This document shows positions 27,017 through 57,400 of a stretch of DNA of 64,000 bases, in pieces. Made by a program: the position numbers and the translations under genes. Location: contig JASSKH010000023.1 in assembly GCA_031763025.1 (NCBI GenBank), forward strand, positions 5,979,501 to 6,043,500, given 5' to 3'. The notes beneath the pieces are model-generated. The model did not search any database. It was given only the letters and a program-made list of their open reading frames with translations, and was not told the DNA's origin. Source of the DNA: Macrocystis pyrifera. Its lineage: Eukaryota > Sar > Phaeophyceae > Laminariales > Laminariaceae. Positions within the stretch are counted from its first letter, which is position 1. Each line of letters starts with the position of its first letter.

Positions 27017-27113
27017 AACGCCCCCTGTCCAGGCATTGTAGGGATGCAAGGAACTATGGTCATACGACTACGGCCATGCATGACATCGAGTACCCCCCCC
27101 CCCCCCCCCCCCC
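27017..27113 (+). mobile_element. Poly(C)-tailed SINE, truncated (S1)
   Basis: Only the last ~75 bp plus the C21 tail are present: GGCATTGTAGGGATGC, ATGGTCATACGACTACGGCC and GAGTACC(n). It starts in a short C-run (GCCCCCTGTCC). The LINE fragment L1 follows the tail directly. Confidence 0.85.
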
Positions 27114-28645
27114 GCCTACGACGGGGAAATATCGAAGTATGTTGATATTTTACAAGGAGTTGCACAGGGATGTACGTTGTCACCTAACTTATTCAAGATA
27201 TATATTAACGACCTGATAGTAGCAGTCGAGGCAGCAAGGCAGGGAGTCAAGGTAGGGGAAGATACGGTGTCGGGATTGATGTTTGCGGATGACTTCGTGG
27301 GGATGTCAGAAACACGCGAAGGATTGCAGAAACAAACAGAGAAGGCGGTAGAATACACCAGGAAAAGAGGAGGGTGACGGCGAACTTCAAGAAATGCGCA
27401 GTAGTTGTTTGCAACGAAGATAGGGTAAACCCGGTAAATTTCAGTTGGAAGTGGGGATAAAATGAATTGCCGATCGCACACCAGTATACATACCTTGGCG
27501 TAGAGATCTCAAAAGACTGCTCTTGGGATATACATATAGCAAAAGTAATAGGAAAGGGCAAGGCACAAGTAGGCAAGATGGATGCGATCCTAACAGACTC
27601 GAACCTAGACACAAGGATTAAGATATGTATCTTGATGAATGTGATAGTACCAAAGCTAGAATATGCAGGATAAGTATTTAAAGGGAACGCGAAACTCGTA
27701 AAACAGTTGGAAACGGTACAAATGACAGCAGCTAAAAAAATCCTAAGATGTTCAAGTACGGTTAGTAATACTGTATTAAGAGCAGAACTGGGAATGCGCC
27801 CACTCAAGACAAATAGAGACATGATAAAGTTGAACTGGCAATATAAAGTAAGGAACATGCCAAAAAAGAGGTTACCAGCCATAGTTGATAGAGCTGTATG
27901 GGAGAAAGTAACAAAAGGGCGAGCTGGAAGAAGGTGGGATGGCGTAGTTGAGAAAGTATGGAAGGAAAAAGGGGAAACCAAGACGAGATGATGTCCGCCG
28001 GGAAGTTTGGGAGGTACAGGGCAGAAGTAGAAAAAATGATAGAAAGAAGGGAAGGCTAGCGCTAAAAAACAAGGTGGAACCGGAAAAACACTTAGAGATA
28101 TACGGGGGATTGAGGGAAGGAATAGGAATGAAAAGGTATTTGCATGGCCCAATAGACTTCGCGAAAACGCTGAAACTGCACTTTAAGTGTAGGGGACCTG
28201 GATCTGCCAGAAAGAAGAAAGAGGTACACCAGTAGCCGGGAGGAGGAGGAAGTAGACGCACAGATGTACCCGTGTGGCAAAGCAATAGAGAGTAGAATTC
28301 ACATGGTGGGAGAATGTGAAATATACAAGGAAGAACGGGATGTGTTAGAAGAGGAGATGAGGAAAATAGACAAATGTGACATGGAGGAGTTTGATACAAT
28401 AAAAAGCAGCGAGAAAACGATCGCTATCCTAGGAGATAGATGGTGGCCACAGGAGGCCAAGCAGGAAGGGGATAAGATTAGCAAAAAGTTTCTATGTAAT
28501 ATATGGAAACAACGTAATGAGCGCCCAATTGTTGGAGGTGTCTCTATTAGGAGTAGGAACGGTGCTCCGTCTCGAAAGGGATGCGTGGTCAATGGTCAAA
28601 TGACTAAGGCAAGCAGCAAATGAGTACGCCCCCCCCCCCCCCCCC
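27114..28645 (+). mobile_element. Poly(C)-tailed non-LTR retrotransposon, 5' truncated (L1)
   Basis: It begins inside the reverse transcriptase: QGVAQGCTLSPNLFKIYIND, then GLMFADDFVGMSETREGL (catalytic FADD), then YTYLGVEISKDCSWD. Frameshifts or stops split it into frames at 27177-27377, 27467-27673, 27707-27991 and 28264-28623. The last carries a C-terminal zinc-like motif C-x8-H-x3-C ([15 protein letters not shown]; the first Cys is Tyr here but Cys in copy L4). The stop codon TGA in AAATGAGTACGC(n) lies six bases before a C17 tail. No endonuclease part is present. In this family such proteins nick target DNA and prime cDNA on the 3' end of their RNA. Confidence 0.9.
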
Positions 28646-29695
28646 GCCTAATGGCCGGAAAAGTGATAAAAGCATAGTGTTATCCCTGGTTGGAATGAGT
28701 TTTTGTTTTTTTACGAAATGCCCTCTACCTCTTTGGTATCCCCGGGGACAAATTTAGCGTCAAGATAAATTGCCCGACCCTGGGGGACAGCACGAAGATC
28801 AAACAGGGGCTTAGGGTACTCTGAAGTCTCTGGACCCTTTCGTTTGGTGTCCTTTTGCCCCCCTGCTCCTCGTCACGACTACCCCCGATGAAGGGTGCAA
28901 GCATCCCCAAGTATTGTCCGTCCTTTACTTCTTATGCGCTTACTCGTAGATGCTGTGTTGAGACCCGGCATTACGGGTTATCGAGCGCGAGGTACGGGGC
29001 GGCGGCGGCGAAGCGAGCTACACACCAGTCTGTGGCGGATGTGTCGAGAAAGCTGTTTCTTGGAAGAAACCCCCCCTGCGCGTTTTCTCCCCGGGACCTT
29101 TTTCTGGTTATATTTACGAAGTCCCCCCTGCCTCTTTGTTCTCCCCGAGGACAACGTTTCATCGAAAAAAAAAAAAACGCTCGCCCCCCAGGGGGCGGCG
29201 GTATGTTGGTACATGTTCCTATGTACTTTATGCTCTCTGTATGTGATATCACTGATTCATATTAATATGTGTTTTATACTCTGTGTGATATCACCTGGTA
29301 CCAGGTGTACGGTAGCAGGATACCCTGGTATACGCCCAGGGCAGCTGTACTACGTACTCGCATATAGGTATCCCACCTTTACACCTGATCATGAGGGCAA
29401 AGGAGGGTGCCGGGAAATGAAAAAAAAAAACGAACACGAGCCGCCTGCAAATATCATCATACAAAATATAACACACACACATGAACTTGGCAGCTTGTGT
29501 ACGTATGTGAAAACCCTGTGTTGGGGGTCAGGGTTGACTTTTCAAGTTTTTCCTGCCTGCCTTTTGACCACGGGCTGGATTATGGCAATTCGTTACTTGA
29601 TGTGTGATCCAGCAACAACAGCACAAGGCTTAGAACACGCGAGTAGCAACAAAAACAACCCAAACTAAAGATCCCGGCGACCACGTTGTACGGGG
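28646..29695. other. No recognisable gene
   Basis: Contains the second copy of the 65-bp repeat (29540-29608) and a pair of similar ~46-bp C-rich words at 28708-28755 and 29108-29160. No coding family is seen. Confidence 0.4.
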
Positions 29696-30012
29696 TGGTC
29701 GTAGAGTCTAAGCCTGGGTGCCCTGACCACCACGCCGTCTGATGAGATTCTTTCAAGTCGTTGTATCATTTCGAAGGACGATAGTAAATAGGACCTACGG
29801 TACAAACAAAAACCTATATATTCCCTTAATTTTTACTAAAAATCTTTGGTCCTATTTACTATGGTCCCCCTAAATAGAGGACGGAGAAGGAAAGGGAGGA
29901 GTGCTCGAACTCTCCCCATAAGTGCACGGCAAAGTTCATATTAACGCCTGCGAATATATACGCAACCCTCTGCAACTTGTAACCTCCGCTGCTGGAACGA
30001 TCCGAACGAACT
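29696..30012 (-). repeat. Copia 3' LTR with inserted MITE
   Basis: It matches the right LTR (TCGTAGAGTC(T/C)AAGCCTGG; GATTCTTT; ACTTGTAACC). It is interrupted at 29774-29876 by a MITE. A purine-rich tract follows on the minus strand just outside (plus 30012-30030, CCCTCCCTGG). Confidence 0.85.
29774..29876 (+). mobile_element. MITE-108 copy 5, inside copia LTR
   Basis: The left TIR is eroded (GGACGATAGTAAATAGGACC). The right end ATTTACTATGGTCCCCC is intact. The LTR sequence resumes on both sides, so the MITE inserted after the copia element. Confidence 0.85.
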
Positions 30013-30213
30013 CCCTCCCTGGCTCCTCACGGCAGTGACGAGGCCGGAGAGACGTTCGAGACATGCTAGGACCTGAGACCAGCCAACGACAGTCCCGCAG
30101 GAGTGAACCCGGCCACAGGGTCAGAACCCCCTGAATAATACATTTATTCTAAACCATTGCATTTGAAACAACGGCCGCATTCTAAACGATGACATGGCCA
30201 GAAAATAATATGC

Positions 30214-30321
30214 TATTACGGGGGTACATAGTTAATAGGACCCATGGTATACATAAAAACCTATATATTACCTATTTTTACTATCAAAATTTGGTCCCGT
30301 TAACTATGGACCCCCGTAATA
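30214..30321 (+). mobile_element. MITE-108 copy 6
   Basis: Both TIRs are good (TATTACGGGGGTACATAGT / ACTATGGACCCCCGTAATA). It lies in the copia 3' untranslated part, between RNase H and the 3' LTR. Confidence 0.93.
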
Positions 30322-30510
30322 AGTGGTGCCCTACTCCCCCATGCCCCTCAAAGTAGTAGCGCAGGGTGGCGAACTGACAAATTATTACTTGCATCACTCA
30401 AAACATGGTACTCATGGAATAATGCCCGCATCCCCTCACCTTCCAAAGACAGATGCAACAAGAACCTGCGGTGAGACTTAAAAGGGGTCCCGGCAAGGGA
30501 TTTCGTCGAA

Positions 30511-31095
30511 TTATTCCGCGTGCTGCTCTTCCGAAGCTACGGACCGAATGTCGATCTTCTTAGCACGAATTAGCCCTCTAACGAAATGAAAGTGCACGTC
30601 GATATGCTTGCGTCGAGCAGAACTAAGAGGGTTCTCAGCCAACGCTATGGCCCCCTGGTTATCCTCGAAAACCCGGACACACGGTCCGCTTAGCTCTTGG
30701 CAAACAGACGACAATACGGCGCCCGTAATCAAAGCTTCCTTCGCCCCTTCACCCAGGGCGACATGCTCTGCTTCTGCTGTCGATAACGTAACACACGTCT
30801 GCGTGCTACATGCCCAACTGACGGCCGCACCCCCCAGGGTGATTACCGTCCCCGATACCGAGCCTCTATCGTTCGACTTATCAGCAGAATCAGCATCACT
30901 AGACACAGTCAAATCCAATCCCGGGCGCTGCACAAAAGTCAATCCCCAAAACCCGGTCCCGTGAAGGTATGCAATAATCTTCAAAACTACCTTCCAGTGC
31001 TTTTTCGTAGGGTTGTAGGAGTGGTGCGCCACTGCACGCACAGCGTTCGAGATGTCCGGCCTCGTCATGGTCGACAGCCACATCAAGCTGCCCAC
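30511..31095 (-). pseudogene. Copia RNase H domain
   Basis: A 194-residue open frame with typical Ty1/copia blocks: WLSTMTRPDISNAV, then SSDADSADKSNDRGSVSG (Asp), SWACSTQTCVTLSTAEAEHV (Glu), FEDNQGAIALAENP (Asp) and RRKHIDVHFHFVRGLI. The domain itself looks intact. It is separated from the RT by frame changes. Confidence 0.92.
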
Positions 31096-31222
31096 AGCTT
31101 CCCTGCATGGCCAGTATTCTCCAAGTTCGCCCTCCTATCTTGGACCAAGTTCCACACCGAGGGTCGCGGGGATGTCAGAGGACGAGATAACGCCAAAACG
31201 ATTCAACATGCTCTCAATGAAC

Positions 31223-32069
31223 TCATTTTGCGTAATCTCCAGCGTCCCCAATTCCCAGTCGCGTTTGAAAGCACAACCAGTCTACCAAGTCAGTTTGCCG
31301 AGGTCTATTCGTCGGGAATTTCGTAACTAGCGCGGAATGGAAGTCCCGGCATGTCTCGTCCGATCCTTCGATCACGATGTCATCTACATGTATGTACGGC
31401 CACAGTTCTACCTTGCCTTCCACAACCATGCGAAACATACAAGGGTCAGACCTACACTGCTCCATTCCGTACTGGTACCACGGTCTCTACCAATAATCCG
31501 ACCCACTGCCGTCCGCTCTGCTTTAAACCATACAGTGATCCGTTTAGGCGGACGATCTTTCCGACATGTTGCCACCACCCACCGGGTAATTTCATGTACA
31601 TCTCGACGTCGAGTTTCGCGCGAACAAAAAACTTGTGCGACTTCTAGATGGAAATACTTAAACCACGTTCGTTGGCATCAGCCGCCAGAATTTTAACTGG
31701 CGCTGACGAGGGAGTTGCTGCGAACGTGTGGGAGCAATCTACATCCTGCACCTGGCTAAAACCCTTAGCCACATGTCTGGCCTTAGTCTTTACTATCAGG
31801 CCATCCTCATCCGTTTTGTAGGTGAACAACCACTTCGCACCTACAGGTTTTCGCCCTTGTGACGGTGTCACGGCTTCGTACGTACCGGTCGTTTTGTGAC
31901 CGACCAACCCAATTGTCGTGGCCTCGTGCCACGCCCCTTTATATTGGGAACGCTCTACATCTGCTACGGACTGCGGGGGCGGTTTAAAGTCTTCCGCGAA
32001 GCCACGCGGCATGCACACGCTCAACTCCCCTTTATTCTCCACAGCAGGTCCTCCGGCCATCAAGGCCAC
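31223..32069 (-). pseudogene. Copia reverse transcriptase, broken
   Basis: The frame at 32069-31644 holds the start of the copia RT (VGAKWLFTYKTDEDGLIVK; ARHVAKGFSQVQDVD). The frame at 31465-31223 holds the catalytic loop (WPYIHVDDIVIEGSD). The part between is shifted or has stops. The protein would copy the element RNA into DNA. Confidence 0.88.
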
Positions 32070-32599
32070 TGCGTCCTCCGCCGTTCAGGATGTACGCTTC
32101 AGGATACTCCCAGGCTTCGTCCACCACTCGCACGCTGCCGCAAGCAGCGCGCCTGCGACTTCAGGGTTAATCCTTACCTGGTACACAGCAGGTTCACCCT
32201 CCAGGCGTTGGCTCTGACCCCGGGTCAGGCCCCGTACTGTCGGGGGGAGCCGTCCCCAGCTGCTGAGTTTGTGTGCTGGCCTCCCCGACAGGACCGCGGA
32301 GAGATCCTCACCGTTCCCTTGGCCGGTGTCGGAGGCTGATGCTGCGCCCGGGTCGCTTTCGGCTTTCCTGCCGGGACCGAGTAGGCGTCCACGGCGCCCC
32401 CTTGAGACGAACCCATCGTCTCGGCTGTTCCGGCCCTCCCTAACGGGGTCGTCGAGGCGTCAACCGCACACCCCCGAGACGAGTCCATCGTCGCGGCTGT
32501 CCCGTCGCTGGCGTGGCCGGCGGCAGGTGCCTGCTGTGCGCGCTTCTGCAGAAACGCGTCCAGATCTAAACCCCACGTCAGTGGGACGTTGCCGCCCAC

Positions 32600-33610
32600 A
32601 ACGGCGCAGTGACCAGGAGTTGCGCGCCGGGAAAAAGTTCAGGAGCCTGGATTCGACCCGCCATTACGGCCGTCTTAATCAAACGTAGCGCGCGCTCTGC
32701 CTCCCCATTGAATTGGGGTCTGTCGGCCGTCGTGAATTCCTGTTTGATATCTCGTGATCTACACAGGTGCCCAAACTTCCCTCCGCGGAATTCACCACCA
32801 TCAGATCAGCTGAGCACTATTACGGGAGTCCATAGTTAATAGGACCTGTGGAATACATAAAACCTATATATTTACCTATTTTTACTAACAATATTTGGTC
32901 CTATTTACTATGCTCCCCCGTAATACCAGATACCTTGGAAGGGACATCGTCTGCACAAGAATCCGCGAAGAACTGGCCGAACAATTCCGCGGCGTCCGAC
33001 CTGTGCATAGAGTACACCCACCTAATCCGTACAAAATCGTCGCGCACGATGAGCGTATACCGATTCCTCTGCTAAAGACTCTACCACCGTAGATCCACTC
33101 GAATCCACAAAAATCAACCCGAGCTTCTTATCCGCTCGTGTGTGCGTGGAGCTGGCATAGTAGCTCAGTGGTTTATCCTTTATAAACGAACATGGGCTGC
33201 TCGATTCCTTTGCGGAGACCCTTCGCCATGGAGCACCCTCTGCACTCCAGCAGCTCTGCCTCGAGAACAATCCCTTGCTGCTCCGCGGCCTTGCGGAGTA
33301 GTACCTCGTGGGAGTGTCCAGCCGCGCAGTGGAAGTTTTTGTTGATGTCAATTGCAGAGGTATTGGGCAGTTTGCCCCGGGGCGAGTACAGCACAAGCAT
33401 TTTCCCTACTACTGCAGTCGATCCGGTAGCCGTAGAGGCTGTAGAGGGTCTCAACTCAAGGGAAACACGGTCGAACGCTCTGTCTTGAGCCTGCCTGACT
33501 ACAACCCCCGTGGAGCACCCTTCGAAAGTGTGGCCGTTTTCGACGAGATTGGGCAGGGAAAATAAGTGGTAACGGAGGTCCGGCACGTGCGCAACGCTAA
33601 TTTTCAGCAC
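32600..33610 (-). pseudogene. Copia integrase, interrupted by MITE
   Basis: The pre-integrase zinc region (NKNFHCAAGHSHEVLL; ECRGCSMAKGL) is in the frame at 33610-33173. Catalytic-core pieces continue toward 32926, with DDFVRIRWVYSMH in another frame. A MITE sits at 32818-32925. Immediately beyond it come a TGA, then SDGGEFRGGKFGH and FNGEAERALRLIKTAV, which carry the second Asp and the Glu of the DD-E triad. Frameshifts, the MITE and a stop destroy it. Confidence 0.85.
32818..32925 (+). mobile_element. MITE-108 copy 7, inside copia integrase
   Basis: TATTACGGGAGTCCATAGT at the left; ACTATGCTCCCCCGTAATA at the right. Integrase coding sequence lies directly on both sides. Confidence 0.93.
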
Positions 33611-33737
33611 TGGCGCGAGAGCGTTTCCGGACCGAAAAGACAGCGTTTACGTCACCGTGTCCTTCGATCGATTGAGTGGGTCCATCAGCGATGCGCAGTT
33701 AGAGGTTGCATTCTCGATAATTGAGCATGCAGTCTGC

Positions 33738-35235: not shown

Positions 35236-35320
35236 CGCCAGCTTGACCTCGCGTCTCAGCTCTTAAACTTCACCCGAAGAATCGCGCTCTTCTTGAGCCG
35301 ACCCCTTCGAAGACGTCCTT

Positions 35321-35334
35321 GGCTTCTGGTACCA
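35321..35334 (-). other. Primer-binding site of copia element
   Basis: The minus strand reads TGGTACCAGAAGCC, one or two changes from the TGGTATCAGAGCC that is complementary to initiator Met tRNA in many copia elements. It lies about 30 bp inside the right LTR boundary I could define, so that LTR may extend a little further left. Confidence 0.7.
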
Positions 35335-35363
35335 CCAGACCTCAAACGTTCAAGCTACTGGTG

Positions 35364-39300: not shown

Positions 39301-42229
39301 CAGTTTAGTAGTGTACGGTACGGTACGTTTCGGGGAAGTGCTGGGTTGAAGAAACGAACGGGGGGGTCAGAGCTATTTTCATACGCCTGCAAAAATCGAA
39401 CCGAGTGTTGCCCGTGCTGCTTTTTTTCGCAAGTCTCGTTTCTACCCGTATATAATACGGTACTTTTGTACGAAATCCCTCATACATACAAAAGGTGTGT
39501 CGCTGTTGTACGTTGTCTTGCTCAGTTCTTGTGTTTCGTCTTTTGTGTTCGTTTTCTGTGTTCGCTCACGGCGGTGACGCCCGCGGGGAGCGATTGGTTG
39601 CGTGTGTTTGGAAGGCGATCTTCTCTTCGCTGTAGAAAACATCGCTGCCTCTGGTTTGGCGCGGGTCCACCGCATTCCGTCCTGGCGAAAGCTTCCGCCC
39701 GCAAGGCGCGAGGTTGAGGTTGGCGTATTTTGTTGTTGATTACGGCTGTCTCACGACAATCTTGGCCACTTAACGGAGTGGGTGTTGATTTGAATCGTGA
39801 AACGTCTTCCCCTCCTCCCCCCCCCCCCCCCGCCCATGCGTACACTCCCCCCCCCCCCCCCATCCTATTCTTCCACACACACCCTATCTCTCCCCCCCCC
39901 CCCCCCCCCATTTAACAGGTCCAAGTAGGGGCTCGGGGGTCAAGCAATCTTCGCTACGCTGGCCCGGTGGACTGCGCCTTCCAACTCATGAAGGCTGACG
40001 GTATCGGCGCCCTGTTTCGAGGCACCTCGGCGACACTGGCCAGAGATACGCCTTCCCTAGGCATCTACTTCGCGTCCTATGAGGGCACCAAGGGGTGGCT
40101 GGAGCGGCGGTGGGGCCTGGGAGAGCACGCATCCTCGTTCGGGGCCGGGGGCTTCGCGGGAGCGGCAAGCTGGTTGTCGATCTATCCGCTTGACGTGGTC
40201 AAGTCCGTGCAAATGGTGAGATTATGTTTTGTTTTTTTTGGAGATTGTTTTGGAGATTGCAGTGGTGGGGGGGGGAGGGAAAAGGGGAGGGGGGTGGTGG
40301 GGTAGGGAGGGGGGGGGGTGTACTTATTATCATGCATGGCCGTAGTCGTATGACCATAGACCCTCGTATCCCTACAATGCCGGGACGGAGGGGGGGGAGG
40401 AGGGTGCTTGGTCTGGGTGGTGATCTGCGACCGGTGATGTGTTTTTGTTTCTGGAGGAGGTGGCTGTAGTGATGGGGATAGTGGTGGGGGGTGGTGGGGT
40501 GCGATTGGGGGGGGGGGGGGGGGGGGGGGGGAGAGGGTGTGCGGAGGGGGGAGGGAGGGATTCTAGCAGGTGCATCTGGTTGTCGAAGGCCTACATCACC
40601 GGTTTTGTCGGACGGCAAATGCCGCGTGCTCTCTTCCCGTGTCGATGCTCACCTCAACCAATGGTACCAATTGGCCTTGTCCTGATGTCCTCTGGCGTGC
40701 CAGTTCTCATCTAACTCCCCCTGATGTCCTCTGGCGTGCCAGTTCTCATCTAACCCCCCCTGATGTCCTCTGGCGTGCCAGTTCTCATCTAACCCCCCTC
40801 CCCCCCCCGCAACTTGCAAATATATATATGTCATATACAGTAGGTAGCCCCTTTCAAGGGCCTCCACGATAAAGAAAAACGGTGTGCAAGGGACGTCAAT
40901 TTTCTGCCCACCATGTTCGTCCACTACCGACTGCAAGCGGCCGGTACTAACCCTGACAAGGGACTACGGTACATAGTTCCAATCCCGGACGCACTATCTA
41001 TTAGTAGGGTCCCTCTTCACAGGGGCTGCGCCTACCGTATATATTAAGGTTGGGTTGGCGTCGGTTGGCGACGATGCTGTAAAACACGCCTCTCACTGCG
41101 TGAGCTAGACAACCAGCAGAGTACCGTGTTTTTTGTTTTTTGGTGTGGTCACCACGGCTGGCGGCCGAGATAGGTCATTTGTGCAGGGTGGAGAACCTTA
41201 ACTCCGCGTAAGGGGGATGATCGTGCCACGTGTGTGTATACCCACGAGGCAGTTACATAGCAAGCCCGTAGCTGTCTCTGGAAGTGGGCACACCAGAAAA
41301 CAAATAAATTAATTCGACGCGTTCAGCGACGTGCAAGTCCGGTTCTTTGGGCGATGCTGCTCGCCTTTCATGCGACTCGCCGAAAACCTCACGGCGATTC
41401 GCAAGCTTGGTGCAAACAATGTTGGTCTGGTCGGTAAAAACTCGACATGCTCCGTCCCGGCATTGCAGGGCTGCGAGGGTCTATGGTTGTACGACTACGG
41501 CCATGCATGACATGAGTACACCCCCCCCCCGAATGTGACCTGGAGGAGTTTGGTACACTAGATAGCAGCGAGAAAACGATATCTATTCTGGGAGATAGAT
41601 GGTGCCCACAGGCGGCGAAACAGGAAGGATATAAGAATAGCGAAATGTTTCTGTGTAATATACTGTATGGAAAAAACGTAGTGAGCGCTCAAATGCTGGA
41701 GGTGTCTCTATTAGGAGTAGGAACGGGGATGCATGGTGAATGGTGAATGACTAAGGCAAGCAACAAATGAGTACGCCCCCCCCCCCCCCCCCCCCCCTAA
41801 ATGTTGGAGGTGCCTCTTTTAGTTGTAGGAATTGTCCTCTGTCTCGAAAGAGACGGTCAATGGCCAAACGACTGAGGCGAGCAATAAATGAGTACGCCCC
41901 CCTCTCCCCACGCCCTCACCCTCCTGTTCCCCCCCTAACCCCTTTGCCTTCCCCTTCCCTCCCTTAATATCCCAAACGCGATTAACAAAACACGTCAACA
42001 AAACACGGCATAAGGCTTCTACGGACCCTCTGGACCCCTCGATTCGGACCATGGCTTCCTGCTTCCGCCACGTCTACAAATCCGCCGGCGGCGGCGTTCC
42101 CGGTGTGCGCCGCTTTTTTTTCGGGGAGCCGGGACCACGGTGTGCCGCGCCGTGCCCGTTAACGCTACCATTTTTCCGGCGTTCGAGTGGACGACTAAGT
42201 TTTTGAACCAAGCCTTCCCCCCCGAGTGA
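36199..42229 (+). CDS. Mitochondrial carrier protein (SLC25 family), five exons visible
   Basis: Joined exons 36199-36391, 36861-36955, 38675-38896, 39919-40215 and 42015-42229 give about 340 residues in compatible phases with GT-AG borders. Three carrier repeats are marked by PFDTVKVRLQ, PTDNVKVKLQ and PLDVVKSVQM. Other family blocks are LFKGMAAPLVSASLVNA, LFRGTSATLARDTPSLG and TVCRAVPVNATIFPAFEW. The RDTPSLGIYFASYE and RAVPVNA types resemble the carnitine/acylcarnitine and amino-acid subgroup (SLC25A20/29/45/47-like); the substrate is an inference. The product should exchange metabolites across the inner mitochondrial membrane. The first transmembrane helix and start codon are missing, probably on an exon further left, beyond or before the copia insertion. 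The last exon needs one extra base in its T8 run to stay in frame. Introns are packed with simple repeats and poly(C) retroposons. Confidence 0.9.
36861..36955 (+). CDS. SLC25 exon b
   Basis: Acceptor GAGAGTGCAG, donor GTAAGT. Encodes GFLALFKGMAAPLVSASL and NAITFGAYAQSQR, i.e. the end of carrier repeat 1 and helix 2. Phases fit exon a (1) and exon c (0). Confidence 0.9.
36956..38674. repeat. SLC25 intron with CCGA and GGTGTT microsatellites
   Basis: 37075-37440 is rich in (ACCG)n words and 37730-38240 in (GGTGTT)n. Open frames across them are repetitive shadows and are not genes. Confidence 0.85.
38675..38896 (+). CDS. SLC25 exon c
   Basis: Acceptor CTCGCGGCAG, donor GTGGGT, 74 codons. Encodes ALAAYGFSDD, a Gly/Asn-rich linker (an insertion relative to typical carriers), then FRSFLGGSFAGLCQAVVVIP and motif 2 TDNVKVKLQ. 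Confidence 0.92.
38897..39918. repeat. SLC25 intron with GGTAC-type minisatellite
   Basis: 38905-39320 consists of GTACGGTACGGTAAGG-like words arranged in two larger copies of ~180 bp (TGAAACTGTACGGTAAT and the equivalent downstream). C/CCA-rich runs precede the acceptor of exon d. Confidence 0.88.
39919..40215 (+). CDS. SLC25 exon d
   Basis: Acceptor CATTTAACAG, donor GTGAGA, 99 codons, phase 0 at both ends. Encodes YAGPVDCAFQLMKADGIGAL, GTSATLARDTPSLGIYFAS, the matrix-helix region and motif 3 YPLDVVKSVQM. Confidence 0.95.
40302..40391 (-). mobile_element. Poly(C)-tailed SINE, truncated (S2)
   Basis: The minus strand gives TCCCGGCATTGTAGGG, CTATGGTCATACGACTACGG and a tail ending in GTACACCCCCCCC. 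It starts at a C-rich run (plus G-run at 40388-40397). It lies antisense in an SLC25 intron. Confidence 0.85.
40679..40797. repeat. 39-bp tandem repeat, three units
   Basis: CCTGATGTCCTCTGGCGTGC followed by CAGTTCTCATCTAAC is repeated three times, ending in a C-run. Confidence 0.95.
41046..41530 (+). mobile_element. Poly(C)-tailed SINE, full-length (S3)
   Basis: About 485 bp, colinear with S6 over its full length, from AAGGTTGGGTTGGCGTCGG to ATGAGTACAC(n). The 5' end can fold (GGTTG...CAACC around GTCGG...CGAC). No tRNA A/B boxes are obvious. The LINE fragment L2 is joined directly to its C10 tail. Sense orientation in an SLC25 intron. Confidence 0.9.
41531..41798 (+). mobile_element. Poly(C)-tailed LINE 3' fragment (L2)
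   Basis: Matches the last ~240 bp of L1 (GAGTTTGGTACACTAGATAG; CTGGGAGATAGATGG) with deletions, ending AAATGAGTACGC(n) with about 22 C. Confidence 0.92.
41799..41902 (+). mobile_element. Poly(C)-tailed LINE 3' fragment (L2b)
   Basis: About 100 bp, from AATGTTGGAGGTGCCTC to AATGAGTACGCCCCCC. It begins at the last C of the L2 tail, so this is a second insertion onto the first. Confidence 0.9.
42015..42229 (+). CDS. SLC25 last exon, with apparent 1-base deletion
   Basis: Acceptor GGCATAAG, phase 0. It encodes DPLDPSIRTMASCFRHVYKS AGG and VPGVRRFF in one frame. After a T8 run (42114-42121) it continues in another frame as RGAGTTVCRAVPVNATIF, PAFEWTTKFLNQAF and a TGA. One additional T would restore the normal carrier end. 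This is either an assembly error in a homopolymer or a mutation that truncates the last helix. Confidence 0.85.
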
Positions 42230-43010: not shown

Positions 43011-43014
43011 ACGA

Positions 43015-43794: not shown

Positions 43795-44190
<396 letters not shown>

Positions 44191-44471: not shown

Positions 44472-44778
44472 AGGGGGGGGGGGGGGGTGTACTCAATAGG
44501 AGAGATGTACTCGATCTCAGGCATGGCCGTAGTCGTATGACCATAGACCCTCGCATCCCTACAATGCCGGGAAGGAGCATGTCGGGTTTCCACCGACCAG
44601 GCAGACATTGCTTACACCAAGCGCGAAGCGCCGTGAGGTGTCCGGCGAGTCGCATGAAGGGTGAGCTGCATCCTACTAAGAACCGCTTGTGAGGCGGACT
44701 TGCATATCGATAACAGCTTCAATGAGTTGATTTAACTTCCGGTGTGGCCACTTCCAGAGACAGCAATGGGAGTACTAT
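44472..44778 (-). mobile_element. Poly(C)-tailed SINE, 5' truncated (S4)
   Basis: About 290 bp of the 3' half, from the GTGGCCACTTCCAGAGAC region to the C-tail (plus G16 at 44472-44487). There is a small duplication of the GAGTAC end (GTACTCAATAGGAGAGATGTACTCGATC) at the tail. Confidence 0.88.
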
Positions 44779-45107
44779 GATGGAGAGGGGGGAGGAGGGG
44801 AAATGGGAGGGGTGAAGTGGTGAGAGAAGGGTGGGGGGTGAGAGAGAGTCTCCCGTGTTGTGCTTTTTTTGCCTTTCCTCGTCGCAGCTCAGCTGAGAGG
44901 GACTCGGGCCGGCTCAGCTAGGAGCTGTACTGATTACCTTCGCTGCATGCCTTTTGATGATTTAGAGGGTCTTGTTACTGTGTTTGACAATCTTATTTAC
45001 TTCTTTTTTCTCGGGAGCTTGATGTGTATGATGGTTGGTTCTGATGACTTTGTGGATAGTTTGGTGAGTTGAGTAGCTTGGTGAGCTTGACGAGTGTCGG
45101 GATTTGG

Positions 45108-45306
45108 TTGGGGGTGTGTATCCTCATGTCATGCATGACCGTAGTCGTGTGACCATAATCCCTCGCACCCCTTCAATGCCGGGACGGAGCACGTCGTGTC
45201 GGTCGAAGCGCCGTGAGGTGTTCGGCGAGTAGCATGAAGGGTGGGCTGCACCCTACTAGGAGCCGCTTGTGAGGGGAACTTTCTTGCATAGGATGACAGC
45301 GTCGAA
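45108..45306 (-). mobile_element. Poly(C)-tailed SINE, 5' truncated (S5)
   Basis: About 200 bp, colinear with S4 and S6: ATGCATGACCGTAGTCGTG, CCGGGACGGAGCACGTC, GCGCCGTGAGGTGTTCGGCG. The tail is short (GGGGGTGTGTATCC on plus). Confidence 0.85.
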
Positions 45307-47190: not shown

Positions 47191-47213
47191 CGCCTATATA
47201 TACACTATATATG

Positions 47214-47708
47214 TAGGTTGGGCTGGTGTCGGTTGGCAACGACACTGTAAAACACGCCGCTCACTACTTCAGCTCGACAACCAGGGTACCTTTTCTTGTG
47301 GGGGTCGGTCACAGCTGGTGGTCGAGTTAGATCATTTGTACGGGGTGGAGAACCTTTACTCCGCACAAGAGGAATGATCGTATCACGTAGTGCTTATAGG
47401 GTCAGGCACCCACGAGGCAGTTACATAGTACTCCCATTGCTTGTCTCTGGAAGTGGCCACATCGGAAAATAAATCAACTCATTGAAGCTGTCATCCATAT
47501 GCAAGTCCGCCTCACAAGCGGTTCTGAGTATGATGCAGCTCACCCTTCATGCGGCTCGCTGGACACCTCACGGCGCTCCGCGCTTGGTGCAAGCAATGTC
47601 TGTCTGGTCGGTGAAAACCCGACATGCTCCTTCCCGGCATTGCAAGGAGGCGAGGGTCTATGGCCATACGACTACGGCCATGCATGATATCAAGTACACC
47701 CCCCCCCC
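47214..47708 (+). mobile_element. Poly(C)-tailed SINE, full-length (S6)
   Basis: 495 bp. It starts TAGGTTGGGCTGGTGTCGG, directly after a CGCCTATATATACACTATAT segment and a long C-run. The 3' end folds as ATGGCC-ATACGACTAC-GGCCAT, then GATATCAAGTACAC(n). An internal hairpin CCGC-CTCACAA-GCGG lies at about 47505-47521. With S3 it defines the family. Confidence 0.92.
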
Positions 47709-48240: not shown

Positions 48241-48244
48241 AAGC

Positions 48245-48660: not shown

Positions 48661-49876
48661 TCGATATCGACTACACCCCCCTCCCCCTCCCGCCGCCCCG
48701 CCCCCCCCCTGTTTTTCTGCACATATCGTGACACGGGGAGGGAGGCTTTTGTCCTGTGCCTTTTTCTGGTAAACCAGCCCTTCCCTCCCCGAGAATGGTA
48801 GGCATGCGAAAAAAAGTATGCAAATGTAGATATGTACGTACCATGGTACCAGTCTAATGTCTAAAATGAGGTATGTATACGTAGGGGTGTACACCTTGTG
48901 TCTCGAGCAGTTCTTTGTCAGCCCGTCTGTCTTCTTGCCTCACAGTAAGAAGGGGCCAGACAAGAACACGTCCATCTCTGCCTTTACACACAGTAGGAAA
49001 AAAAACAAGACGTGAGAAGCACAACACACAAATATCTCCCCAAGGCGAAGAGTAAAAATACAAAAAAGTAAACATCTTAACCCCCCTTCTCTCTGTCCCA
49101 CTTTTTCGTGTCTCTTCCTCTCTCTGCCTGTTCGTTTGCCACGGAGCAAAAGCAAAGAGTAAACCAAAACTGCCTTTGTCTCGTCTAGTCTCTCTCTTTT
49201 TTCGCTCTCTCTGGAGTTTCTCTCTGTCTGCTCGGCACCCAGTGCAAAAAAAATGAAATAATGAAGCATATATATATATCTATGTCTCGCTTTCTCTCAA
49301 AATTCTGGCCCGCAGTGATAAGCAAAAACAAATAGAAGCACACAAAAAAGCGAAAAAAGAAAAGAATACAGCAACGAAATGAAACCAATACTGATCAGCG
49401 AAAAAGCAAAAAAAAAAAAAAACAGAAATCACGCCACATTCCCCCAAGAACTCCGAAAAAGACAGGGCGCCAAGGGAAGAGGGGGGGCGGGGTGAGGGGG
49501 CAGAGGATATGGCCACGTCCCCGTCACAGTCCCTTGCCAAGGCTTCGGATGATATTTCTCGCCTCTGTGTCGTCATTTGAGGGAGTGTTCCAAGACCTGC
49601 TCGCGTGATAGTCGGAGGCGATAGCATGGCTTAGATTGAGTTGGGTGGGGTTGGTCTGGGATGGGGACAGGTTGGGTTGGGTTCGCTTGGGTTGGCTTGG
49701 GTTGTTATACGCTCGGGTTGGATCCGTCTTTGTCGTTGTCTCGACTCGGCTTCAACTTGGCTTTGGCTTGCGTGTTATTTGCGACGCACCGCAAAAATAA
49801 AACGGTTGGCTTAACAAAGTGGAGTCCACACAAAAAAGAAGCGCATGAAAAACGAGGGCCATGGAATCCCCCCTCT
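48661..49876. other. No recognisable gene; TTGGG-rich tract
   Basis: 49637-49700 contains GGTTGGG-type repeats. The remainder is A/T- and CT-rich without domain signals. Confidence 0.4.
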
Positions 49877-49977
49877 GTCTGGTCGGTGAGTCCCGACGTG
49901 CTCCATCCCGGCATTGAATGGATGCGAGGGTCTATGGTCATACGACGACGGTCCTGCATGGCGTGAGTACACCCCCT
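49877..49977 (+). mobile_element. Poly(C)-tailed SINE, truncated (S7)
   Basis: CTGTCTGGTCGGTGAG, CCCGGCATTGAATGG, ATGGTCATACGACGACGG and GTGAGTACACCCCC. It starts immediately after a CCCCCC run. Confidence 0.87.
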
Positions 49978-51234
49978 TACTGCCTCTCCGTGTCTCTTTC
50001 ACTCCCTCCCTTCCCCTCTGTCCCACTCTCTAAAATCTCCTCTGTATGTCTCTCCGGTTCCTGACCCCCAAGGCTTAACCCCCCATTTTCTTTCCGTGAA
50101 AATAGTCTACCTTGAAGAATTGGCGTTCACGCGTCCATCGTCCGCCATGTCGCGCAACGTCTCCTCCAGTGAAATGGGTAGAAGCTCCTCCGAGTTCGTC
50201 TTGAGCCTGCGCGGCCGCAGCGCCGAAGCAGCAGCAAACAGCAGTGTCAGCAGCACCAACAATAGCAGCAGCAGCAACAACAAAGAGCTATACATTGTGC
50301 AGGATTCATACGCTGCTAACGTATCATCCAGATGATACGGCTTCCACCCGGCAACATGGCAACACAAGCTGCACTGGACCATACAGATCAGGGACGTATC
50401 TTCCCCGAGATATCTGCAGTAGATCATCAAGTGGGGATCGATTATCTGCCTGAGGTGTGGAATGGTTGAGATGCGGCTGTCTTCGAAATGCGTCCAGCAG
50501 TGAATAGGATTGCCTGGGTATTTAACTAAAACCTAAAAGTTCCTTATGTTTCCGGATAAAGCGCTGTTGTTTGGGTTCAGGTGGTTTACGGTGTATTCCG
50601 TGCCATTGGTGGTATGGCGATGGCTTTCGTTGACGATTTATTCCTGTCCCTCACGGCTGGGCCTTCCTTTCTCATTTCGTTTTTTGGCGTACCTTGCCGG
50701 CTTCGCAACCTTGCCGTTCAGAGGTGCGGGAGTGGGCTTTGAGAAGCCGCATCTTCGACTCATGTTCTAGCTCGTGGAATCGGGTTTCCATGAATTTCCC
50801 ATAATTCTGCATATGCGGCTCATCAGAGTGGGCTGGTGCTATGTTACTGATTTGGATGAGGCCGAGAGGCCGGTAATTACCTGGGTTCAGGTATTGGGAT
50901 CGTACTTGTAGTACTTGGGAGGCGTATCTTAGATGGAAAGCACGAGCCTTGCTCTCAGTCACTCATCGTGCACGAAAGGAATAAAGCTGCTCTTCTTCTA
51001 TCTCTCAAGCAAACATCACACGTGAGTCCCAACGAGTACCTGCTCGATAGGCAAAAAGCTAACAAGGGATTCAAGGTGTCCCGACCTTCAACTTAACAGC
51101 GTCCATCAGTCAAAAGAAAAGAGTTGGCCAAAAAGTGCTCTCACGGTCACAAACGCTTTTGGACGAAAAGTGCTCCAACCCCTGTCGTCGAGAGCGGCAC
51201 GTCGGGATGACGGTGGTTTCGACACGCGGCCGCT
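49978..51234. other. No named gene; one open frame of unknown nature
   Basis: A minus frame at 50962-50672 (NYRPLGLIQISNIAPAHSDE; MQNYGKFMETRFHELEHESK) has ordinary composition but no family I recognise. 50330-50465 shares scattered words (CACCCGGCA, CTG(C/T)C(T/C)GAGGTGTGG) with 57985-58130. If the PDK gene has a further 3' exon it would lie at about 51105-51180. Confidence 0.35.
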
Positions 51235-51425
51235 TCACCTGTGCAAGTGTATGTACGCGTCCGTCCCGTACCCTTCCATGGGTCTCAGCTTCAGGCTGCC
51301 GCCGAAGTACCTCGCGTAGAGCCGGCTCAGGGGCAGGCCCATCCCGTACCCGGCGAACGCGAAGGTTGTCCCTCCCTCGGGCTTGGGGGCTCTCAGCAGC
51401 GACGCCTCTTCCTTCAGCCTCATGC
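51235..51425 (-). CDS. PDK exon 8 (Z): G2 box, C-terminus
   Basis: Acceptor GATGATGCAG (preceded by a G-rich, not pyrimidine-rich, tract), phase 1 in. Encodes [38 protein letters not shown] and [12 protein letters not shown] then TGA. The final AGG-TGA is within CACAG-GTGAAG, a good donor, so the stop may be intronic. A possible next piece begins after CTCGACGACAG at about 51178. Confidence 0.88.
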
Positions 51426-54400
51426 CTGCATCATCCCCCATCCCCCCCCCCCCCAAAAAAAACACGCCCAATACGCACCCCGGAGGTATGACATGTATAC
51501 GGAAGAAAATAGGGGGTGGCGGGGGGGAGGGGGGGGGGGGGGGAGAAGGACGCGGCGAAGGAGGACAAGGACAAGGGCGAGAACGAAAACGAGAAAGAGA
51601 AAGATAAAGTTGAGCAAAAAATAAAACGGGATCAAGGCGGAGCGGCATACCGACGCCGGTGCTAACGTGACCAATACGAGCGTTACCACAACCACCACCA
51701 TCATCAGCACAACCACTACTAAACTGACGCAACATAAACTAAGGAACATGCCAAAAAAAGAGGTTGCCAGCCATAGTTGATAGAGCTGTATGGGAGAAAG
51801 TAACAAAAGGACGAGAGTTGGAGTAAGGTGGGATGGCGTAGTTGAGAAAGTATGGAAGGATATGGGCGGAAACCAAGAAGAGGTGATGTCCGCCGGGAAG
51901 TTTGGGAGGTACAAGGCAACAGTAGAAGAAAATACAGAAAGAAGGGAAAGGCTAGCGCTAAGAAACAAGTTGGAATCGGCAAAACATTTATGAGATATAC
52001 GGGGGATTGAGCGAAGGGATAGGAATGAAAACGTATTCGCACGACCCAATGGACTTCGCGAAAACGCTGAAACTGCGATTTCGTGTAGGTGATCTGGACC
52101 TGCTAGAAAGCAGAAAGAGGTATACCAGTAGCCGGGAGGAGGAGGAAGTAGATGCACAGATGTGCCCGTGTGGCAAAGCAATAGAGTAGAACTCACATAG
52201 TAGGAGAATGTGAAAAGTACAAGGAGGAACGGGATGTGTTAGAAGAGAAGAGGGAAATAGACGAATGTGACATGGAGGAGTTTGATACACTAGATAGCAG
52301 CGAGAAAACGATCCCTATCCGATTAATAGGAGATAGATGGTGGCCACAGGCGGCCAAACAGGAAGGGGATAAGACTAGTAAAACTAAACTATGTAACATA
52401 TAGAAACAACGTAATGAGCGCCAAATTATTGGAGGTGTCTTTATTAGGGGTAAACACGGTACTCCGTCTCGAAAGGGATGCGTGGTCAATGGTAAAAAAT
52501 GACCAAGGCAAGAAACAAATGAGTACGCCCCTCCCCCCCCCCCCCCCCTAACCACCGCCTACACCTCACCCGACATGTGGTCCAGTGGCACTCCATTCAG
52601 CTGGGCGGCGGTCGGTTTCGGCGCCGTGGAGTACATGTAGGACCACACGTGCTGCAGCTCCGAGCGACGGATACCGCCTCCCTCATCGACAATCTTGATC
52701 GTCATGTCCTCCTTGCCGCGTGCCACGATTATCTGGTCGTATACACGGTTTCACAAATTAGTAAGATGTACATACAAGTACAGCTCAAGGAAGATGTGTG
52801 CAACAAAACAGAAAAAAGAACCGAAAAAAACGAACAAAATAAAATAAAAACCAGTGTTAGAACCAAAAAAAAGAAAATAAACATAACAAGAACACCAAGA
52901 GGGGTGCCGGGGGTGTCCACAACTACTGTAGAAAGGGCGTTTCCACGACCAGAAAGGGATAATGTTCTCTATGCTATGCGATACATCATGCACCGCGAAG
53001 CCTGCCGCAGCTGTGGCCACCGCCGCGCTATCTCCGCCCCGCACCCCACCCAAACGCTGCAACACAACACCGCGTGCCCAGCTGTAACTGACCATTGCTG
53101 TGCGCCATACTATTAATATCTCGCTCGTTCCGCCAACAAAAGCGGGCCAGGGGGTTTCCACACCGAGAAAAGGGATGCCCTTCGCTCGCACCTTTACCGG
53201 GGGTAGCTTCTCGCCGGGCCTCGTAAGGCGGCCGTGCTCCACCGTGGCCCTGCAGCTGTTCTTGAGCACCTCCCTCATCATGTAGTACAGGTGGCTTGGC
53301 ACGGCCGTGAAGGTATCTTCCTCTCGCCCGAACACCTGGGGGTGTGTGCGTGTGTAGGAAACAATCGACGAAAATCGGTCAAAGCATCGATCGAGAAACA
53401 GACCAAAAGAGGTCGAAAAGTTATTAAAATACCGTAGGTGAAAACAGATCAAAACAGCTAAAAAACAGATCACAACATGTTTTGATCGACACTTGAGATA
53501 AATCGATGTATCACTGAATCGATCCACCCGTGAATCGACGAGTCGACGGCGAAAGCTACCGGGTGCCGTTCACAGAAAAGCGAGGTTGAAGGACCACGAA
53601 ACGTACCAAGCGAACATGCCAACAACGATATCAAAACCGACACCGGTATCAATACCATTGCAGGCACCGAAAACGACGCCGCGACCAACAACGGTATCAA
53701 ACCGGCGCAAAACCCAGTCATCATTCAACACCAGCGCCAATACCAATGGTAACACCAGCACTGGTATCAACATCACACTTAAACGCCAACGTCACCATCA
53801 ACACCACCACCAACACCCCCACTAGCACCATCACCACCACCACCATCGACACCACCACCACCACCACCACCACCACCACCACCACTTCGAACAACAACAC
53901 CGCCAACGTCCTCACCAACACCAACACCGCCAACATCACCACCCATACCACAGCAGTAACACCAACACGGCCGTAACCCCGAATCGCTACTCCCACTGCG
54001 CACCACCACCGTCACACACCAGCAGCACCAACAGCACATCGCCACCGGGCCCAACGGCCACCACCAACACCATATACCATACCAGGTACCCACCAACACC
54101 ACCACACCAGACAGGGGAGTCATACCTCGATCGGAGGGGCTGTACCCATATGGAACCGGCATAGGCGGTCGACGTCAGCGGCCGCCGTCCAGGCGACCTT
54201 AACGCGGGATATGTCAATAGTTGCAAACGAAACAAAACACGGCCGTGAACAGTTTCAGTGGTCGCATGCACCCTCTGGAGACAAGCAAAACAGACACGCA
54301 AAAACACACGTGTCGGTCAGAGCGTACAATAATTTCATAGCAGCAGCAGCAACAGCAGCAGCAGCCGCAACAACAGCAGCAACAGCAGCAACAGCACCAG

Positions 54401-57400
54401 CAGCAGCAACAGCAGCAATAACAGCAGCAGCAATAGCAGCAGCAATAGCAGCAGTACTACAGTAATAACAGCAGCAACAACAACAACAACAACAGTAGCA
54501 GCAGCACAGAAGCAGCTACAACAGTAGCAGCATCAACAGTACCATAATCAACAGCAGTAACATCAGTAGCAGCGGCAGCGACAAGCACACAGAAAAAAGC
54601 CAGGGCAAGCCTCGGCGCCAAAAGTGGCAAACGACAACTTCTACCGTTGCTGTCTGATTGGACCCTCCACAACAGCCCCCCCCCCCCGCCCTCCCCACCA
54701 CCCCGCCGAAAAAAAGCCTCTTTTCAATACCCTACCGCTCTCTCACCAGCACGGGCGAGCACTTTGACTGGATTACCCCGGAAAATCCCGGCTTGTTATT
54801 CTTGCTGCTGATGTACGTATCCACCAGGAATCGGAGGCTAATCCTGGAGATGAAGAAATTGTCGAGGATGCGGTCGATGCGGTGTCGCTGGATGACTCCG
54901 ACCTTCCCCCTGTGTCGTTCCGTCCGCCAACCAACGTACACAGCGTGTCCGCAGATAGGTATAAAGCATGGTGTAAGCAAACATCGGTAGGTTGGTTGGT
55001 TGGTAAATACTTGACTTGAGTTCATTGGTGTGATTGATAGGGTGGTTTCGGTGTCATTTGTTGACAGGATTGGTTCGTTGGTTGATTGATTGGATTGGTG
55101 TCATCTGTTGATAGGATCGGTTAGTCGGTTGATTGATTGATTGATTGGTTGGTTGATCGGTTGCTCGGTCGGTTGGTTAATCGATTGATAAATTACTGCA
55201 TCGATTAGTCGACTTGATTGGCTGGTCGGGAGATTGTCGTCTAGCTTAATATTTTGATCGAGTGGACAGTCTCTCCCCCCCCCCCCCTTCCCCACTCACG
55301 GCAATCCGGTCCCTGTACTTAAAATACCACGTGCATCATTCCTTTCTATCTCTGAGGAACAGGGAGGAGGGGGGGAGGGCGGGCGGGGGGGGGGGGGTAC
55401 TCGTTTGTTGGTTGCCTTAGTCATTTGACCGTTGACCACGCATCCCTTTCGAGACGGAGACGGAGCACAGGGGGGGGGGGGGCGTACTCATTTGTTACTT
55501 GCCTTAGTCATTTGACCATTGACCACGCATCCCTTTCGAGACGGAGCACCGTTCCTACTCCTAATAGAGACACCTCCAACAATTGGGCGCTCATTACGTT
55601 GTTTCCATGTATTACATATAAACTTTTTGCTAATCTTATCCCCTTCCTGTTTGGCCTCCTGTGGCCACCATCTATCTCCTAGGATAGCGATCGTTTTCTC
55701 GCTGCTATTCATTGTATCAAACTCCTCCATGTCACATTCGTCTATTTTCCTCATCTCCTCTTCTAACACATCCCGTTCCTCCTTGTATATTTCACGTTCT
55801 CCTACTATGTGAGTTCTACTCTCTATTGCTTTGCCACACGGGCACATCTGTGCGTCTACTTCCTCCTCCTCTCGGCTACTGGTGTACCTCTTTCTTCTTT
55901 CTGGCAGGTCCAGGTCCCCTACAAGAAAGCGCAGTTTCAGCGTTTTCGCGAAGTCCATTGGGCCATGCAAATACGTTTTCATTCCTATTCCTTCCCTCAA
56001 TCCCCCGTATATCTCCAAGTGTTTTTCCGATTCCACCTTGTTTCTTAGCGCTAGCCTTTCCCTTCTTTCTATCCTTTCTTTTACTTCTGCCTTGTACCTC
56101 CCAAACTTCCCGGCGGACATCATCTCTTCTTGGTTTCCCCCTAGATCCTTCATACTTTCTCAATTATGTCATCTCACCAGGGGGGGGGGGGGGGGGGGGG
56201 GGGTCAAAGACACCAAAAAGAAACAAGTCCTGGTACTATATGTACGACTTTCAGAGGCAAAAATGTTAGAGAAAAGAAAACACAAGCGCGTCTCGTTAGC
56301 TTTGGCTCGACTCTTGACTATTCTCACAAAGCCCAGTCACCTCTGTCGCAGTTCCAGCACGCCGCGGCTCAACGCCTGCGGCACGCTCGTGTGGTTCATC
56401 AGCAGCGACGACAAAAACCTCGAGAACTCCTCGTCCCCGTCGCTCCCCGTCGGTACGGGGTACTCCACCAGCTGCCGCATGATGCGAGCGTACCACCTGT
56501 TCTCGTGCGTCAAGAGAGGGGGAGAGAAATATCGGGGAAGGAGGCGGGGGGAAGGGAGGAGCGGGGTGCACTCGATAGCATGCATGGCCGCAGTCGTATG
56601 ACCATAGACGGGGGGGTTGTATGGTTGTATGTACGTTGCGCTCTGTGTAATATGTGTCTCTGTGTCTCCCTCTCTCTGACTGTGCCACCGTTCTTCTTCT
56701 ATCTCTGTCTCCTGTCTCTTTCCCCTCCTCTCTGTTGGACAGCTTCTAAGCTACCGGTATATTTTACCTGGTTCCGTCGAAATCATACCCTGTTCCTGGT
56801 GTACACGTGGAACCAATATGTGTCTCGCATGTCTTATCGGTCTTTCTGTCTGTCCGCCTGACGAGACTATCTATTACCAATACCTGTCGGTCTACCTGTT
56901 TCCTACCTATGATACCTGACTATCTTAACTGTCCATTTGTCTGTCTGTACCTCCCCCTCCCTCCCTCCCTCCCTCCCTCCCTCTCTCCCTCACTTCCCGC
57001 CATACCCCCCCCCAAGTCCGCCTCGCAAGCGGTTCTTAGTAGGATGCAGCTCAACCTTAATGGGACTCGCCAAATACTTCACGGCGCCTCGCGCATTGTG
57101 CAAGCAAATGTCTGCCTGGTCGGTGACAACTTGAAGTGCTCCGTCGCTTTGTAGGGGTGCGAGGGTCTATGGTCATGCGACTACGGCCATGCATGACACG
57201 AGTACCCCCCGCCCCACACCCTTCCCTCCCTCCTCCTCGCTTCCCCCTTATCTCCCCTCCCTTCCCACTATCTCTCTTCCCCTTCCCATGTCTCACCCAG
57301 CCGCCTCGATGACCGGGGCGGTCTCCGACAGGCCGTACGGTAGATGCCGGAGCTCCAGCGCTCTCTTGGCGAACCGAATGGGAACCTGTCAGGCGGACGA

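Follow-up and report, generated by a model that had tools for sequence, protein, structure and literature searches.

In a 64,000-nt stretch of the genome of the brown alga Macrocystis pyrifera (contig JASSKH010000023.1 of assembly GCA_031763025.1, positions 5,979,501 to 6,043,500; hereafter, the window), we observed two families of repeats, an RTE-like long interspersed nuclear element (LINE) and a non-coding passenger of about 500 bp, called here a short interspersed nuclear element (SINE). The two probably form a LINE/SINE-type pair that inserts mainly into poly(C) tracts. Both elements end in a common 3' tail that lies, in the LINE, inside the reading frame. Most copies start at a run of C, several of them within direct repeats that begin in that run, and copies follow one another head to tail. 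The original prediction, made from the letters of this stretch, had proposed a SINE mobilised by a stringent partner LINE, and had missed poly(C) as the apparent insertion target. The pair with its common tail stands, whereas the structural argument put forward for it, a stem in the tail, does not.

Copies of the two elements

Using blastn and a search for the tail, we found nine copies of the SINE-like repeat, the same nine that had been claimed (blastn recovers them), and six LINE copies, every one 5'-truncated. They are spread over positions 27024-57210 of the window, on both strands. A model built from all 15 tails gave no further copies in the window. In searches of a genome contig collection the sole match was of 21 nt, on a contig of a Firmicutes metagenome-assembled genome (MAG), and was taken as chance (E 0.0095 under the 15-tail model); in a viral contig collection there was no match or no confirmed relative. 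The copies and the features read on them are as follows.

27024-27113 (+): SINE copy S27, 5'-truncated, tail C21, C5 at the 5' junction
27114-28645 (+): LINE copy L27 (its tail is L28 in alignments), LINE homology from about 27119
28593-28606 (+): hairpin of L27, UGGUC-AAAU-GACUA
28621-28623 (+): stop codon TGA of the L27 frame (in-frame translation), 5 nt ahead of the C17 tail
40309-40389 (-): SINE copy S40, 5'-truncated, C8 upstream, tail C10, direct repeat C8TCC
41029-41530 (+): SINE copy S41, near full length, exact 5' end uncertain
41531-41797 (+): LINE copy L41a, abutting the C10 of S41, tail C22
41798-41902 (+): LINE copy L41b, abutting the C22 of L41a
44473-44779 (-): SINE copy S44, in a polypyrimidine tract, C6 lying 7 nt before its start
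45110-45303 (-): SINE copy S45, degenerate, no C-run on the 5' side
47192-47708 (+): SINE copy S47, near full length, behind C16, direct repeat C10GCC
47661-47674 (+): hairpin region of S47, UGGCC-AUAC-GACUA
49874-49976 (+): SINE copy S49, 5'-truncated, behind C6
51727-52548 (+): LINE copy L51 (tail L52 in alignments), no C-run on the 5' side
55385-55469 (-): LINE copy L55b, a 3' stub abutting the C13 tail of L56
55470-56179 (-): LINE copy L56 (tail L55a in alignments), behind C24, tail C13, repeat C13TG
56563-56609 (-): SINE copy S56, a 3' stub behind C7
57014-57210 (+): SINE copy S57, 5'-truncated, behind C9

S41 and S47, both near full length, are 76.6% identical over the blast alignment. 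The direct repeat C10GCC indicates that S47 probably starts at 47195, and the 5' side of S41 shows neither a C-run nor a direct repeat. L27 starts in the reverse transcriptase (RT) domain, sits at the end of the poly(C) of S27 and has a C17 tail of its own, and L56 carries an open C-terminal frame of 223 codons.

A 3' tail common to LINE and SINE

The consensus tails of the nine SINE and six LINE copies were compared, and the best local alignment between them, running from TGCTCCGTC to GAGTAC, covers 73 columns and scores 44. None of 5000 dinucleotide-preserving shuffles of the SINE consensus scored as well (mean 13.1, standard deviation 2.1, maximum 27), so the tail is shared beyond what random sequence gives. 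The resemblance, originally put at about 40 nt, is thus longer than claimed. The poly(C) that follows was likewise correctly recognised as common, since it is found after both element types. A model made with SINE tails alone, all nine of them, and searched against the window on both strands recovered its nine sources and then only three LINE 3' ends, at 28576-28610 (+), 55501-55535 (-) and 55414-55448 (-), with E values of 0.0016, 0.0024 and 0.026; the remaining three of the six LINE tails were unreported by this model over the window. A LINE/SINE-type pair with a common 3' tail is well supported by these observations.

Poly(C) at the 5' junctions

At each 5' start we took the longest sense-strand run of C within 15 nt, several starts having been set by inspection. 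A run of at least five C was present within 15 nt upstream of 12 of the 15 copies, as compared to 3.56% of window positions (binomial P 1.7e-15, treating copies as independent). The 12 runs measure 5-24 nt (C5, C8, C6, C16, C6, C7, C9, C21, C10, C22, C13 and C24), and 11 of them abut the element, the exception being that of S44, 7 nt off. The C residues were always on the sense strand of the element. When the flanks not made by another copy were considered, the sense-strand C fraction was 0.50 in 11 5' flanks and 0.64 in 11 3' flanks, against a background of 0.26 (0 of 20000 random sets).

Direct repeats of mixed sequence that start inside the C-run at the junction and run past it were observed for six of the 15 copies, repeats away from the junction not being counted. 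These are C17GCCTA in L27 (22 nt), C13TG in L56 (15 nt), C6TCTCCATC in S44 (14 nt, CCCCCCTCTCCATC), C10GCC in S47 (13 nt), C8TCC in S40 (11 nt) and C5T in S49 (6 nt). As read from the sequence, duplications that start in the C-run would fit a first nick in the G strand. The C-runs at 12 junctions, taken with these six repeats, lead us to conclude that the elements insert mainly into poly(C). In entering one simple repeat the pair resembles microsatellite-targeted LINEs. Three copies (S41, S45 and L51) have no C-run at their junction, which makes poly(C) a preference and not a strict specificity.

Addition of non-templated C by the RT was rejected as the source of the 5' runs: C residues added at the end of the cDNA would show up on the sense strand as G, and a G-run of at least five was found at none of the 15 junctions.

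Two other homopolymer features of the window were recorded. The longest homopolymer listed is a stretch of 50 G at 16367-16416, with no copy of the pair near it. At 39817-39861 (+), C15, GCCC, ATGCGTACACT and C15 follow one another, resembling a ten-base remnant of the GAGTACAC tail between C15 runs.

The LINE and its protein relatives

Relatives of the LINE were gathered in three protein searches, from which the best 120 of 519 matches, 37 matches and the best 120 of 414 matches were considered, and 261 proteins (P numbers) were collected. P0121, of 655 aa, is 85% identical to the conceptual LINE protein of the window and contains an RT domain (RVT_1, PF00078; E 2.3e-32). Among solved folds it comes closest to R2 and human LINE-1 ORF2p, and several of these structures are target-primed complexes. 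A search of NCBIfam gave only distant RT models. An apurinic/apyrimidinic endonuclease (APE)-type endonuclease was detected only in relatives, namely P0157, P0192 and the Ectocarpus protein P0207; the match to PF03372 in the latter is partial, and 62% of the 284 residues aligned with P0121 are identical. The 973-aa Ectocarpus protein P0147 gave no endonuclease match. The very short 3' untranslated region (UTR) of simple repeats, a trait of RTE elements, is present, the frame ending in TGA, 5 nt and poly(C). The LINE is RTE-like and probably belongs to RTE-X; its endonuclease, to judge from the relatives, would be of the APE type.

Among the matches listed for the window LINE, the named ones are from Ectocarpus sp. 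CCAP 1310/34 and Sphacelaria rigidula, together with P0001, and the window is accordingly most likely nuclear DNA of brown algal origin. P0001, P0240 and P0247 are LINE proteins filed under bacterial MAGs (Parasphingorhabdus and Thiodiazotropha), and are probably eukaryotic DNA binned along; P0001, under a Parasphingorhabdus MAG, is probably algal.

The tail inside the LINE reading frame

In L27 and L56 the tail reads in frame and ends in (S/N)K followed by TGA. The C17 run of L27 starts at 28629, which leaves GTACG and C as its 3' UTR, and the LINE share of the common tail corresponds to the last ~20 codons of the RT gene. In the LINE, then, the part it shares is coding sequence and not a 3' tail apart from the frame. 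The SINE tail is non-coding. Read in the same phase, that of S47 gives RVYGHTTTAMHD, close to the C-termini of some distant LINEs such as P0167 (EVYGHMTTAPN) and P0136 (EVYGQLTTAGN).

Of the 261 collected proteins, 64 have such a C-terminus, as selected by a filter that excluded proteins ending elsewhere (fragments, frameshifts) and did not use the residue scored. The residue before the invariant G was N in 53 tails, D in 4, Y in 4, H in 2 and K in 1, so that 63 of 64 are residues of NAY codons; under BLOSUM62, an N that is replaced would become D, H or Y with a probability of 0.17. The third search reached divergent relatives, the long European Nucleotide Archive proteins P0152-P0172 being mostly 38-42% identical to P0136, and some of these relatives have an APE-type endonuclease. 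The motif V-V-[NYD]-G-x-x-[AV]-[MTR]-A-A-x ends 11 of them (P0152-P0154, P0156, P0159-P0163, P0166 and P0177). In 20 divergent tails selected by eye, the residue before G was N in 12, Y in 5, D in 2 and H in 1, and the residue five positions later was K, T, S, M or R, all possible with codons beginning with A. The last ten residues of these tails were 45% identical on average and the preceding 30 only 12%, figures that favour the motif, as the tails had been picked by eye for motif-bearing ends. In the same set no base was common to the families in the two columns that correspond to the innermost hairpin pair and loop. The AlphaFold model of P0121 has a mean pLDDT (predicted local distance difference test) of 82.5, and the blocks of residues 621-655 have 48, 32, 41 and 42; the C-terminal end is predicted to be unstructured, and the alignment behind the model is thinner there, which may lower the score.

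Taken as a whole, the C-terminal pattern fits conservation of RNA rather than of peptide, as far as proteins tell, whose tails are not independent events. It might instead be the peptide that is kept, for the function of the protein, with the resemblance of the RNAs secondary, which would be compatible with a poly(C)-inserting pair. The C-terminal block is indeed conserved as protein among the aligned close relatives, and the columns of the innermost hairpin pair lack a common base across families. We nevertheless think this unlikely, given the low pLDDT at residues 621-655, the contrast between the last ten residues and the 30 before them in divergent relatives, the several columns confined to a codon class (N/Y/D/H ahead of G, K/T/S/M/R further on), as would be expected if the RNA were constrained, and the non-coding passenger, which keeps the same bases.

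In a second Ectocarpus LINE family, P0133 reads past its own end as KACKTEEYVPPTIF, which GAGTAC and several C after it could encode in that family too.

Head-to-tail chains

Three chains were observed in the window: S27-C21-L27, S41-C10-L41a-C22-L41b and, on the minus strand, C24-L56-C13-L55b. Similar arrangements were found in predicted proteins from other sequences. In P0037 and P0078 a LINE end is followed by seven prolines, which poly(C) would encode, and then by SINE sequence; the two may represent one locus from two sources, and the SINE part of P0037 was recognised by eye. Read-through from SINE to LINE was seen in P0066, with 22 residues between, and in P0102, as well as in P0024, whose SINE match is weak (E 1.7e-5, 29% identity). 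LINE pieces also follow runs of proline in P0036, P0114 and P0062 of Sphacelaria, the latter carrying PF01764, a lipase family, with its LINE part starting behind PPPC.

Such chains raise the question of whether the 5' poly(C) is a target at all, as the RT might leave the 5' end of one RNA for the C tail of another, or C-tracts might recombine, between elements that share a tail. Four of the 15 copies do sit directly behind the tail of another copy, and LINE-C-SINE chains exist in other sequences too. However, when those four were excluded, a C-run was still found in 8 of 11 copies (P 3.8e-10), and neither process is expected to yield repeats resembling target-site duplications, such as C17GCCTA, C6TCTCCATC and C13TG. 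We consider this alternative improbable.

A candidate hairpin in the tail

The original prediction had described a perfect 6-bp stem, ATGGCC/GGCCAT, in the SINE. It is fully Watson-Crick in only one of the nine copies, S47 (47660); the other eight have a U-G wobble, and the copy at 49934 has one broken pair as well. In the alignment of the tails (A6, columns 7-14 with 25-30) the stem is paired in 83% of cells, and two of its six pairs are unpaired in six of the 15 rows, which by the alignment are the six LINE rows. Far from linking the two elements, the stem is thus a feature of the SINE, and we rejected it as their shared signal. None of its six pairs was changed on both sides. The original prediction had named two findings that would speak against it, a shared tail no better than random and a stem without covariation; the second was obtained.

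For both elements RNAalifold picked UGGUC-N4-GACUA as the inner helix, and this is paired in 93% of cells. In controls slid by 1-3 columns, pairing was at most 57% for this helix and at most 46% for the 6-bp stem. One outer pair of the RNAalifold fold differs on both sides between SINE and LINE (G-C in 8 rows, U-A in 4, C-G in 1). The stem letters are identical in the two consensus tails and the loop differs. A hairpin UGGUC-N4-GACUA common to both elements is therefore plausible, not proven, on the basis of the aligned copies.

Least probable is a tail that reflects common descent only, the passenger being a long-dead offshoot of a LINE 3' end that the LINE protein no longer recognises: the hairpin shows no covariation and S41 and S47 differ at ~23% of positions, so there was no young burst, but stem letters kept beside a changed loop, a tail part retained by the passenger despite having no coding use, and the same unusual target, sometimes the same locus, used by both elements all argue against it.

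Identity of the passenger

No tRNA was found in the window by ARAGORN and no Rfam family at the gathering score, and S47 at a lax Rfam threshold gave chance-level matches only; an intact tRNA or another Rfam family was therefore rejected as the head of the passenger. These general tRNA and Rfam scans recognised no RNA polymerase III (Pol III) head, a dedicated scan for boxes A and B not having been made, and for this reason "SINE" is a working name. S41 has runs of T6 at 41129-41141, expected to stop Pol III, and S47 has T4. An origin of the passenger body from LINE coding sequence was also rejected, since outside the tail the tblastn matches listed were only short or of low identity, and chance-like.

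Other sequences of the window

A repeat of ~95 bp occurs at 26323-26417, 29776-29870 and 32825-32919, with palindromic ends (GGACCATAGTA...TACTATG) that resemble those of miniature inverted-repeat transposable elements, and a C12 run comes after its first copy. By eye, a long frame for RT/RNase H and fragments similar to recombinases, at 11909-14230 (-), 2180-2971 (-) and 10906-12080 (-), look DIRS/Ngaro-like. At 30511-31134 (-) there is, by eye, a Copia-type RNase H-like fragment, with no Pfam match at E 0.001.

Interpretation and proposed mechanism

Several points weigh against a poly(C)-inserting RTE-like pair. The sample consists of the 15 copies of one window, whose P values assume independent copies with starts partly set by inspecting alignments; the window is itself rich in poly(C), so that the association may partly reflect where copies survive. 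Three junctions lack a C-run, and some direct repeats, those of S49 and S40, are short and could be micro-homology. An intact LINE frame is present in none of the six LINE copies of the window, and membership of RTE-X is only probable. Of 17 proteins with extra residues before the LINE part (a list that does not include P0114), three, namely P0024, P0036 and P0062, have at least three prolines at most two residues from the junction, as judged by eye. The hairpin UGGUC-N4-GACUA has no compensatory pairs and does no better than shuffles, which are uninformative for both stems because the columns hardly vary; the three tails folded, two of the SINE and one of the LINE, have energies within the range of shuffles (z -0.44, -0.58 and -1.02).

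On balance we favour the pair inserting mainly into poly(C), for which the following course may be proposed. Both RNAs would end in the same element of ~70 nt, comprising the hairpin UGGUC-N4-GACUA and then GAGUAC, followed by C residues. We infer that the LINE protein binds this element in its own RNA or in that of the passenger, which would thus be mobilised in trans, and that in a poly(C).poly(G) tract it nicks the strand made of G. The cut strand, now ending in G, would pair with the C tail of the RNA and serve as primer for target-primed reverse transcription. With the run of the target retained on either side, every insertion would leave poly(C), which could serve later insertions and give rise to chains such as SINE-C10-LINE-C22-LINE.

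A stronger form of this proposal is possible, and we advance it tentatively: LINE and passenger would be specific for poly(C).poly(G) by pairing of the C tail with the nicked G strand, each insertion making the next target, and the final ~12 codons of the RT gene would, across divergent LINE families, carry the RNA signal as an overprint, kept as RNA beneath a disordered peptide.

Comparison with known systems

A LINE/SINE partnership is not new for brown algae. In Ectocarpus, RTEX-N1_Ec32 is a non-autonomous element of ~600 bp whose 3' end is conserved with RTE-X LINEs (PMC12477816). Together with RTEX-1 and RTEX-2 it resembles the pair described here in its brown algal host, in being short and non-autonomous and in the unknown origin of its 5' part; it differs in length (~600 bp vs. 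~500 bp, compared by description only). In the main-text sections consulted, that paper mentions neither a poly(C) tail or target nor chains or an in-frame tail (PMC12477816).

LINEs of the RTE clade have extremely short 3' UTRs consisting of simple repeats (PMC2887409), and the LINE of the window resembles them in the stop codon placed directly before a short simple repeat and in the abundance of 3' pieces with the C-terminal coding end. Their insertion sites are not apparently sequence-specific (PMC2887409), whereas here they are mostly poly(C). Bov-B LINEs and Sauria SINEs are likewise an RTE-type LINE and a SINE partner with microsatellite-like 3' repeats and an insertion signature (PMC13295347). 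Their signature is Tn-TA, and their targets are seldom like the 3' repeat, whereas here tail and target are both poly(C). Given that RTE targets are described as non-specific or as Tn-TA in these sources, the match of poly(C) tail and target stands out.

In the stringent pairs of zebrafish L2 (ZfL2), the LINE protein has been shown to recognise a hairpin in the tail (PMC4176376). The likeness lies in a common 3' tail in which a small hairpin is proposed to be the signal recognised. The difference is that the hairpin of ZfL2 lies in the 3' UTR and was assayed by retrotransposition, while here it lies in coding sequence and is a candidate signal, possibly a case of one sequence being both RNA signal and protein-coding. 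A survey has covered 58 LINE/SINE pairs (PMC3747384), and there is no general consensus on the role of simple repeats at LINE and SINE 3' ends (PMC13295347). A matching tail and target offers a natural test of the idea that tail and target pair, and the reuse of poly(C) a simple explanation for nested head-to-tail chains of retroelements.

A literature search on poly(C) or microsatellite targets, on RTE-X/SINE tails and on tails or structure at the end of reading frames found neither the poly(C) target nor the in-frame tail described in titles and abstract openings. In Bov-B, the tail shared with the SINE also overlaps the end of the reading frame, so that a tail within the frame may not, by itself, be new. 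The pair itself is published in kind, and the targeting of C-tracts, with the chains, is the finding to follow.

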